Assembly: GCA_020628865.1 (NCBI GenBank)
Contig: JAHDEJ010000001.1
Location: forward strand, 298,395 to 362,394
DNA length: 64,000 nt
Direction of reading: 5' to 3'
Source: Acidimicrobiales bacterium
Lineage (GTDB): Bacteria; Actinomycetota; Acidimicrobiia; Acidimicrobiales; SHLQ01
The first letter of the stretch is position 1. The number at the start of each line of letters is the position of its first letter. The notes beneath the pieces were generated by a model. That model was not told where the DNA came from and did no database searches. It worked only from the letters and a program-made list of their open reading frames with translations. The translations under genes were made by a program, and so were the position numbers. Shown in pieces: positions 33,155 through 36,180 of this stretch.

Positions 33155-34069
33155 TCAGTGGGAACGAAGGAACGCGGCGATCTCGGCGAGCGACTCCGAC
33201 GATTCCGGGTAGTCGTCGTAGAACTCGAACACGTGCCACAGTCCGTCCCAGACGCGCGTCTCGACCTCGACGCCGGCCCGGCGCATGCGGCGGTCGAGCC
33301 GAAGGCACATCGAGAGCAGCAGGTCGCGCGTCCCGGTCGTGACGAAGGTGGGCGGCAACCCCTCCATGCCGGCGAACAGCGGGGAGATCGACGGGTCGGC
33401 CGGATCCCGTCCGGCGACGTACACGGAATGCGCAGATTCCATCGTGTGGTGGGCCAAGGTCGGGTCGGCTTCGAGCGTGACACCGAACAGGCCACGGTCC
33501 GGGCGGAGGTCCACGGCCGGAGACAACAAGGCGAGGGCCGACGGCGACTGGCCACCGGCGTCTCGGGCGAGTTGGGCCGTTCGCAGGGCCAGATTGCCAC
33601 CCGCAGACTCGCCGCCGAGGTAGAGGGCAGCGTCGGTCGACTCGGCCAGCGCGGTCCACGCGGCGAAGCAGTCGTTACCGGCAGCGGGCGCCGGGTGCTC
33701 GGGGGCCAACCGATACCAGGGCGCCACGATCTCGAGCTCCGCCCATTCTGCGAGGGCACCGATGACCGGAAATTCCGAGAGCGGGTCGCCCAGAAAGAAG
33801 CCTCCGCCGAAGCAGTACAACATTGTGCCCCTCGGCTGGGCGGTGCGAGCCGATCGGAGCCGGGTGCAGCGCACTCCGCCCAGTTCGACTTCATCCCACT
33901 CGAGCGCATGCCGTTCGACCGCCCGATCGACGGCTGGCCGGAAGCCGTCGTGTGCCTCGCGCCGGATCGCATCGATCCGGTGGAAGTCGACGGGGTCGTC
34001 GACGACACGGCCGGCGAGGAACCGTCGGGCCTCGGAGCTCAGCGACGCATCGGGAAGCCGTTCGCTCAT
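33155..34069 (-). CDS. Alpha/beta hydrolase, hormone-sensitive-lipase family esterase
   Basis: 304 residues. Oxyanion motif FGGGFFLGD (usual HGGG), nucleophile elbow GESAGGN, then TRDLL and DGLWHVFEF for the acid and His. These mark an HSL-type (family IV) carboxylesterase, cytosolic. The start overlaps the SDR stop as ATGA, and the four genes from 36180 down to 33155 are tightly linked. Acts on short-chain esters; the natural substrate is unknown. Confidence 0.8.
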   Translation of the reverse strand: MSERLPDASLSSEARRFLAGRVVDDPVDFHRIDAIRREAHDGFRPAVDRAVERHALEWDEVELGGVRCTRLRSARTAQPRGTMLYCFGGGFFLGDPLSEFPVIGALAEWAELEIVAPWYRLAPEHPAPAAGNDCFAAWTALAESTDAALYLGGESAGGNLALRTAQLARDAGGQSPSALALLSPAVDLRPDRGLFGVTLEADPTLAHHTMESAHSVYVAGRDPADPSISPLFAGMEGLPPTFVTTGTRDLLLSMCLRLDRRMRRAGVEVETRVWDGLWHVFEFYDDYPESSESLAEIAAFLRSH

Positions 34070-34824
34070 CGCGCCGTGTACCCGGCGTCGACGTGGACGA
34101 TCTCGCCGGTCATGTAGCTCGCGTCATCCGATGCGAGGAACACGACGACTGCAGCGATTTCGTCGGGATCGGCGAGTCGCTTCATCGGGATGGTGGCGTC
34201 AGCGAGCGCTTGCAGGTCCTCGGCCGACGGTGGTGCCGCCCGCTCGGAGGCGAGCATCGGCGTGTTGACCTCGCCGGGCGCCACAGCGTTGACCCGGATG
34301 CCCTGTTCGACGTGGTCCAACGCGAGGGCTCGGGTGAGTTGGTGCACGGCACCCTTCGACACGCAGTAGGCGGTGGAACCGGCAGAGCCGACCCCACCCC
34401 AGATGGACCCGAAGTTCACGATCGCGCCCCGACCTGCTTCGATCATGTGCGGAAGCGCGGCCCGGCACAGCCAGAACATGCCGTCGACATTGACGCCCAT
34501 CACGCGACGCCAGTCGGCATCGTCGGTGCCGAGCGAGTCCGCTCGATGGATCGTCCCGGCCGCGTTGACGAGCACGTCGATCCGGCCGTGGCGTGCCACG
34601 GTTGCCTCCACGGCCTCGCCACAGAATGCGGAGTCGCTGACATCGCCGACGAGCGGCTCGGGTCCGCCGATCTCGGCTGCGACTGCGGCGGCACCATCGG
34701 CGTTTCGATCCAGCAGGACGACGGTCGCTCCGGCTGCGGCGAAGCGCCGGGCCGACGCCGCTCCCATTCCGGAGGCGCCGCCGGTGACGAGCACGACCCG
34801 GCCGGCGAAGTCAGTCGAGGTCAT
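34066..34824 (-). CDS. Short-chain dehydrogenase/reductase (SDR)
   Basis: 252 residues from the ATG at 34824. NAD(P)-binding TGGASGMGAASA, NAAG, a Ser before the catalytic YCVSKGA (Tyr-x-x-x-Lys) and a C-terminal GEIVHVDAGY typical of FabG-like SDRs. The start lies inside the last codons of the AhpD-like gene (14-bp overlap), so the two are translationally coupled. It belongs to a nitroreductase, AhpD, SDR, esterase operon. Substrate unknown. Confidence 0.85.
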   Translation of the reverse strand: MTSTDFAGRVVLVTGGASGMGAASARRFAAAGATVVLLDRNADGAAAVAAEIGGPEPLVGDVSDSAFCGEAVEATVARHGRIDVLVNAAGTIHRADSLGTDDADWRRVMGVNVDGMFWLCRAALPHMIEAGRGAIVNFGSIWGGVGSAGSTAYCVSKGAVHQLTRALALDHVEQGIRVNAVAPGEVNTPMLASERAAPPSAEDLQALADATIPMKRLADPDEIAAVVVFLASDDASYMTGEIVHVDAGYTAR

Positions 34825-35389
34825 CGGGGATCCAGCTTTCGGTTTGCACGCCGAGACCATCGGCAATGCGATTGACGTAGGCGTAGTACCCGACGACTTC
34901 GGCGATGTCGAGAATGTCCCGATCGCTGAAGCCGACCTCGGTGAGCCGAGCGGCGTCTTGCGCCGTCATGTCGCCGGGGGTGTGGGTGAGCTTGATCGCC
35001 CACTCGAGCATCGCCGCCCGGGGCGTCGACACGGGCGCCGTCCGCCAGTCGGCTTCGATGGCCGCGAAGAGTGCATCGTCCTTGAGGAGCCGGCGCAGAC
35101 CGCGCCCGTGATGCACCATTCAATAGTGACAGTGGTTCTCGAGTGAGACGACGTAGGCGATGAGCTCGCGCTCGACCTTGCGAAGCGTCTTCGTTCCGGA
35201 CATGGCGGAGACGTAGAGCGCGTTGTGGGCGGCGAGCCCTGCCGGGTTGAGCGAGTGGATCGCCATGATGTTGTCGACTCGCCCGTGGTCGCGGTCCACG
35301 ACCCCGTCGTACTGGTCGGCGAGCCCGGGCGTCTGCGCCCAGTCCTCGTCGGGGATGATCTCGATGAAGGCCCGGTCGTCGCTCGTCAT
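34811..35389 (-). CDS. AhpD-like peroxidase-related selenoprotein, in-frame UGA read as Sec
   Basis: 192 residues if the TGA at 35120-35122 is decoded as selenocysteine. Upstream and downstream parts are in the same frame and together make one full-length carboxymuconolactone-decarboxylase/AhpD-type protein (peroxidase-related family). Residues: Glu 75, Cys 87, Sec 90 and His 94, with spacing E-x11-C-x2-U-x3-H identical to the Glu118, Cys130, Cys133, His137 set of M. tuberculosis AhpD. So TGA replaces the second Cys of the CxxC disulfide. A hairpin right after it looks like a bacterial SECIS. In this family the couple reduces peroxides or alkyl substrates. ATG at 35389. Alternatives are a nonsense mutation or sequencing error. 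Confidence 0.8.
35092..35106 (-). promoter_or_regulatory. Candidate bacterial SECIS hairpin
   Basis: In the mRNA (minus strand) GGCGC, loop GGUCU, GCGCC forms a perfect 5-bp stem; the loop starts 18 nt after the UGA at 35122-35120. The GGUCU loop and the 18-nt spacing are the same as those I recall for the E. coli fdhF SECIS. An outer 7-bp complement (35110-35116 with 35071-35077) could lengthen the helix. It would recruit SelB. Confidence 0.75.
35120..35122 (-). other. Recoded UGA (selenocysteine) codon
   Basis: TGA between TAT (Tyr 89) and ATG (Met 91) of the AhpD-like gene. It occupies the second position of the C-x-x-C redox motif and is not followed by a frameshift. If translated as a stop, the protein would lose its catalytic His and the whole C-terminal half. 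Confidence 0.8.
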
Positions 35390-35430: not shown

Positions 35431-36180
35431 CTACTCGAAGGTGAAACCCTGACCCTCGAGAAACCCGCGCATGTGCGGGCGGCTCTCCTTGCCCAACAGC
35501 GCAGACATGTCGGCGCTCCAGACTCGATCGACCTTCCCGCCGGTGCGGGCGAGGTAGTACTCGCGCATCTGCTCGTCGTAGGCCCGGATTCCGTCCTGGT
35601 CGGCGGACTCGTCGTAGCGCTCCTCCTTGAGCGTGACGGAGAGCGGCAGACGTGGCTTGAGCTCCGGGTCCTGATCCGGGTGGCCGAGGCAGAGGCCGAA
35701 CAGCGGAAACACCTGGTCCGGAAGCTCGAGGAGTTCGGCGACCTGCTGCGGGTCGTTTCGGATGCCACCGATGTAGCAGATGCCGAGGCCCTGGGCTTCC
35801 GCCGCAACGACCGCGTTCTGCGCCGCCAGCGCGCAGTCGACTGTTGCGATCACGAAGTGCTCGGTCATCCCGGCGTGGAAGTCGCCACCGCCCATCTCGC
35901 AGGCGACTGCGGAGCGGTGGAGATCGGCGCACCACACGAAGAACGCCGCCGCCGTCTCGACGTAGGTCTGACCGCCGGCGAGGGCGGCGATCGCTGCGCG
36001 GGTCTCCGGGTTGCGGACGCGGATGACGGTCGTGCCCTGCAGGTTGCTCGACGTGGCGGCGGCCATGCCGGCTCCGACGATCGCTTCGACCGTCTCGTCG
36101 TCGATCGGTTCGTCGGTGAACTTTCGAATGGAGCGGTGCCCCATGAGCAGGTCGAGTACGTCGGTTCCAAGCGTCGTCAT
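35431..36180 (-). CDS. NfsA-type FMN nitroreductase
   Basis: 249 residues. HRSIRKFTDEPIDDE binds FMN (Arg/Ser loop near residues 15-20), followed by ATSSNLQG, the central helix, CYIGGIRNDP and a C-terminal tail typical of the FRP/NfsA group. These are cytosolic NADPH-dependent flavoenzymes that reduce nitro groups, quinones or flavins by two electrons. It is the first gene of the operon leading to the AhpD-like selenoprotein (41-bp gap), the SDR and the esterase, which together look like a defence or detoxification unit. Confidence 0.85.
   Translation of the reverse strand: MTTLGTDVLDLLMGHRSIRKFTDEPIDDETVEAIVGAGMAAATSSNLQGTTVIRVRNPETRAAIAALAGGQTYVETAAAFFVWCADLHRSAVACEMGGGDFHAGMTEHFVIATVDCALAAQNAVVAAEAQGLGICYIGGIRNDPQQVAELLELPDQVFPLFGLCLGHPDQDPELKPRLPLSVTLKEERYDESADQDGIRAYDEQMREYYLARTGGKVDRVWSADMSALLGKESRPHMRGFLEGQGFTFE

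Follow-up and report, generated by a model that had tools for sequence, protein, structure and literature searches.

The frame examined here, in the genome of an Acidimicrobiales bacterium, is interrupted by one TGA, and the question it raises is whether that codon ends a broken gene or is read as selenocysteine (Sec). It lies in the window, by which we mean the whole 64,000-nucleotide stretch that was analysed (G000:C44:298395-362394, from a genome of 5.36 Mb in 113 contigs). The UGA at codon 90 is very probably read as Sec and the gene very probably encodes a selenoprotein, because the TGA is retained in relatives, a GGUCU hairpin follows it at a fixed distance, and the genome encodes SelA, SelB, SelD and a tRNA-Sec with the anticodon UCA. 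The presence of this machinery, together with a TGA and hairpin kept in relatives, supports the original prediction, which had proposed a candidate selenoprotein here.

The split gene and its surroundings

The candidate frame had been placed at 34811-35389 with no strand given. The coordinates were right; they belong to a minus-strand gene, and the plus-strand frame across the same positions was rejected. Read from 35389 to 34811 with TGA translated as U, the sequence gives one frame of 192 codons in which codon 90 is the sole internal TGA, and an ordinary TGA stop closes it at 34813-34811 (Table 1). A single TGA splits this frame without a frameshift, as had been claimed, and minus-strand translation puts E75, C87, H88, Y89, U90 and H94 of the read-through protein exactly where the original prediction had them, including the C87-H-Y-U90 motif. 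When open reading frames are called with the standard table 11, each half appears as a separate ORF.

Table 1. Features at the split frame, in window coordinates
Feature	Position	Strand	Remarks
Alpha/beta-hydrolase-like gene	33155..34069	-	Downstream of the SDR gene; label from sequence
SDR-family oxidoreductase	34066..34824	-	Starts (ATG) inside the putative Sec gene, overlapping its 3' end by 14 nt
Putative Sec-containing AhpD-like gene (peroxidase-related, TIGR01926/CMD)	34811..35389	-	192 aa; ATG start, TGA stop; matches to TIGR01926 and PF02627
SECIS-like hairpin GGCGC-GGUCU-GCGCC, inside the coding sequence	35092..35106	-	Stem GGCGC 35106-35102, loop GGUCU 35101-35097, stem GCGCC 35096-35092; invariant loop, compensatory stem changes, GGT bias
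In-frame UGA, predicted Sec codon U90 of C87-H-Y-U90	35120..35122	-	TGA in all 56 distinct orthologues; distant Cys homologues have TGC/TGT at the aligned codon
Nitroreductase-family gene (PRK10765 / NF008033)	35431..36180	-	41 nt upstream of the putative Sec gene, same strand

Most genus-level relatives also have the nitroreductase gene upstream and co-oriented, an arrangement that does not extend across the order, and the SDR neighbour is kept in some genus-level relatives only. We asked whether the neighbouring genes point to a substrate and rejected them as a guide: the neighbourhood is conserved only near the genus, so it says little on this point.

Family, fold and proposed role

Translated through the TGA, the protein scores 128 bits with TIGR01926 (peroxidase-related enzyme; cut-off 81.8). 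This match covers residues 32-183 and runs across the TGA, in agreement with the earlier view that both halves belong to one AhpD/peroxidase-related protein. The Pfam CMD family PF02627 is also matched (36.1 bits, cut-off 23). The AhpD active-site residues Glu, CxxC/U and His are present as E75, C87, U90 and H94, and these residues are invariant in 56/56 orthologues. Their spacing, Glu-12-Cys-3-Cys-4-His, is what we take to be the catalytic spacing of Mycobacterium tuberculosis AhpD (1gu9, 1knc), a protein to which the global match is weak (Foldseek E about 0.25, 7% identity).

An AlphaFold model built from 27 orthologues, with Sec modelled as Cys, has a pLDDT of 93.6 and a pTM of 0.89. It shows the all-helical AhpD fold, and Foldseek matched it at a TM of about 0.8 to the peroxidase-related AhpD structures 3c1l (Mlr4105), 2pfx, 2oyo, 2prr and 6k40. 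These proteins are 26-37% identical to the window protein and differ from it in having Cys, aligned with U90, in place of Sec. A paralogue in the same genome (L002 on G000:C17, with the motif CLYC) has the family core in common with the predicted Sec protein but is only 27.5% identical to it, carries Cys at the redox position and lacks the GGUCU loop.

AhpD-like selenoproteins were described in 2005, when a study of the Sargasso Sea reported 27 of them (COG2128, CXXU; PMC1088965). The GOS study contained 299 AhpD-like 1 proteins (PMC2398784), and a 2026 review lists an AhpD-like protein, TIGR01926, with CxxU (PMC13188914); MCB9421940.1 is a listed example. The window protein shares with these TIGR01926 membership and a CxxU motif whose second redox residue is Sec, and in both cases the hairpin lies just downstream of the UGA; those sequences came from marine metagenomes, whereas the window gene is from an Acidimicrobiales genome. 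Since TIGR01926/COG2128 CxxU proteins have already been published, the window gene belongs to a known kind of selenoprotein and adds to a family recognized since 2005. The kind itself is not new, a point that the original prediction had conceded. In the literature searched we found no selenoprotein study on this order of environmental actinobacteria, for which the gene provides a secure selenoprotein call.

Three NCBIfam (seleno)protein equivalogs, NF041238, NF053654 and NF041047, likewise have the CMD/AhpD core, and CxxU is given for NF041238 and NF041047. The window protein differs from them, scoring 38.9 bits against a cut-off of 175 for NF041238 (AhpD_rel_CFYUT (seleno)protein) and giving no match to NF053654 or NF041047 at E 0.001. 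Since none of the NCBIfam selenoprotein models scores above its cut-off here, the gene has probably been annotated as two separate fragments.

On the strength of the AhpD fold and of the conserved E75, C87, U90 and H94 we favour, with some reserve, a selenol-based peroxidase or disulfide-reductase role. If the gene follows the established bacterial Sec pathway, SelB on the hairpin would deliver Sec-tRNA to the UGA, allowing synthesis of the full 192-aa protein. U90, activated through E75 and H94, would be the attacking selenolate and would reduce peroxide or a similar oxidised substrate. A selenenyl-sulfide would form between U90 and C87, the resolving thiol, and a cellular thiol system would re-reduce the enzyme.

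A selenoprotein of this fold could also have a job other than peroxide reduction, for example as a selenol-based reductive dehalogenase. The model for such an activity is Bmp8, a CMD-fold enzyme that takes off bromine using an active-site Cys; its structures 6ohi and 6ohj also match the predicted fold (TM about 0.75, 16-18% identity), and a small same-strand cluster with nitroreductase, SDR and hydrolase genes would also fit the turnover of an organic substrate. However, the closest solved relatives are the peroxidase-related proteins 3c1l, 2pfx and 6k40, with Bmp8 far off, and the cluster is conserved no further than around the genus. We consider a role of this sort unlikely.

Conservation of the TGA and of the downstream hairpin

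Nine other genomes of the same family have an orthologue at 72-95% identity, with TGA in all. Of 297 genomes sampled from the order, 45 have an orthologue with 61% identity or higher and two more have one at 38-39%, again all with TGA; a contig scan of further genomes yielded more copies, including one from the Chloroflexia at 51%, also with TGA. Codon 90 is TGA in each of the 56 distinct full orthologues read and Cys in none. Homologues with Cys in these genomes share no more than 36% identity with the window protein and group as a single clade on a long branch. Cys stands at the U90-equivalent position in the distant homologues L036, L101, L107-L112 and L002, as it does in the alignment with 3c1l and 2pfx, and the distant Cys homologues are without the GGUCU motif. 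The original prediction had suggested aligning orthologues from related genomes; close and distant relatives alike turned out to keep the TGA and the hairpin, and none had a plain Cys codon.

Sec at the AhpD-like site therefore appears fixed in this clade, with 56 orthologues and no Cys reversion. The lack of a Cys form among the orthologues could be taken further, to mean that Cys cannot replace Sec and that the orthologues are a branch of the AhpD fold confined to Sec and dedicated to some task other than peroxide reduction, for instance selenol-based reductive dehalogenation of an organic compound; this seems to us quite improbable.

Compared with a relative at 95% identity, dN/dS is 0.12 before the TGA and 0.08 after it. 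Other informative pairs gave about 0.03-0.29 on either side, nearly identical pairs being too close for the measure. Judged by these ratios, purifying selection is similar before and after the TGA. If the gene were a pseudogene or the product of a sequencing error, the TGA would be a true stop and the halves would be decay products, a reading that agrees with the one ORF per half obtained with table 11. It is at odds with the TGA shared by all 56 distinct orthologues, which come from many genera, with the similar purifying selection past the TGA, and with active-site residues that are invariant on both sides of it. Base-calling error in particular is excluded, since genomes from many genera, assembled independently, have this same TGA, and we give decay or error as a whole next to no weight.

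A hairpin with a 5-bp stem and a GGUCU loop had been predicted after the TGA, starting 18 nt downstream. The stem and loop are as described, but 18 nt is the distance from the TGA to the loop, and the stem itself starts 13 nt downstream of the TGA. Both the loop and its distance from the UGA are, we presume, those of the Escherichia coli fdhF SECIS. GGUCU follows after 18 nt in 56/56 orthologues, so that a hairpin with a conserved G in its apical loop is found just 3' of the UGA by comparison. Among these orthologues 97% of the core stem pairs are standard, compared with 20-59% when the pairing partner is slid by 1-3 positions. The covariation score, computed on an 18-sequence subset picked for variety, is 0.224, against 0.118 in shuffles (1 of 500 as high) and at most 0.115 in slid controls. 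Pair 18-30 is seen as GC, AU, GU and CG, and in two distant copies the stem is entirely different, GGAGAA pairing with UUCUCC or UUUUCC. The Gly codon that overlaps the loop is GGT in 56/56 orthologues; elsewhere in these genes 16% of Gly codons are GGT.

Folding of the window sequence by itself did not give a significant hairpin (z = 0.35), the lowest-energy structure being a different one, and an Rfam search of the region returned no meaningful match. Given comparative signals well beyond chance and a folding result that is not significant, support for the hairpin is comparative and not thermodynamic.

Some distant relatives in the phylum that have the TGA lack the GGUCU loop or have a changed first Cys (L098 with CHCU and L100 with AHYU are examples), and the pattern is therefore looser outside the orthologue group. 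Other phylum groups of TGA-containing AhpD-like genes (L096, L097, L098, L099, L100 and L102-L105) have different downstream sequences, and several Sec-bearing AhpD groups seem, from their sequences, to exist in the phylum. Two genomes of a single genus carry, beside the Sec gene, a tandem paralogue of about 39% identity (L048, G153:C239:3442-3897; L051, G122:C289:5131-5574). Its active site reads SGYW instead of CHYU, and it is apparently an inactive partner. A further CMD homologue, L106 (G218:C39), has Ala (GCC) at the Sec position, in the motif CDYA.

Selenocysteine machinery and the use of TGA

The original prediction had proposed a search for selA, selB, selC and selD, and selA, selB, selD and a tRNA-Sec were all found in the same genome. 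In profile searches selA scored 380 bits (cut-off 267.9) and selB, directly after it, 298 bits (cut-off 242); selD scored 359 bits (cut-off 125), and the tRNA-Sec, with the anticodon UCA, scored 65 bits, above the Rfam cut-off. The selD gene (L024, G000:C106:117069-117992) has an in-frame TGA of its own before Gly-Cys-Lys and is likely to encode a selenoprotein itself. On the contig that carries the tRNA-Sec (G000:C13, L021 around 4350), a run of N fuses two unrelated genes into one apparent ORF, which is an assembly gap.

Among carriers of the TGA gene, selA is present in 47/47, as against 178/297 genomes of the order sample overall (hypergeometric 2e-12, a value that overstates independence since the genomes are related, and with the selA match in G087 being partial).

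TGA is the terminal stop of most neighbouring genes and of selA and selB, which have no internal TGA and use TGG for Trp, so TGA is a normal stop in this genome. This usage, the UCA anticodon of the tRNA-Sec and the Cys found at the aligned residue in homologues all speak against decoding of the UGA as another amino acid (e.g. Trp) through a variant code or suppressor tRNA, a reading for which we found no support and whose probability we regard as negligible.

The same genome contains a second gene with the CMD/AhpD core (L022:8089-8554, minus strand, G000:C76), in which an in-frame TGA falls in the motif CPTU and is followed by a hairpin. This gene adjoins a xanthine-dehydrogenase-like gene and probably encodes a second, different selenoprotein.
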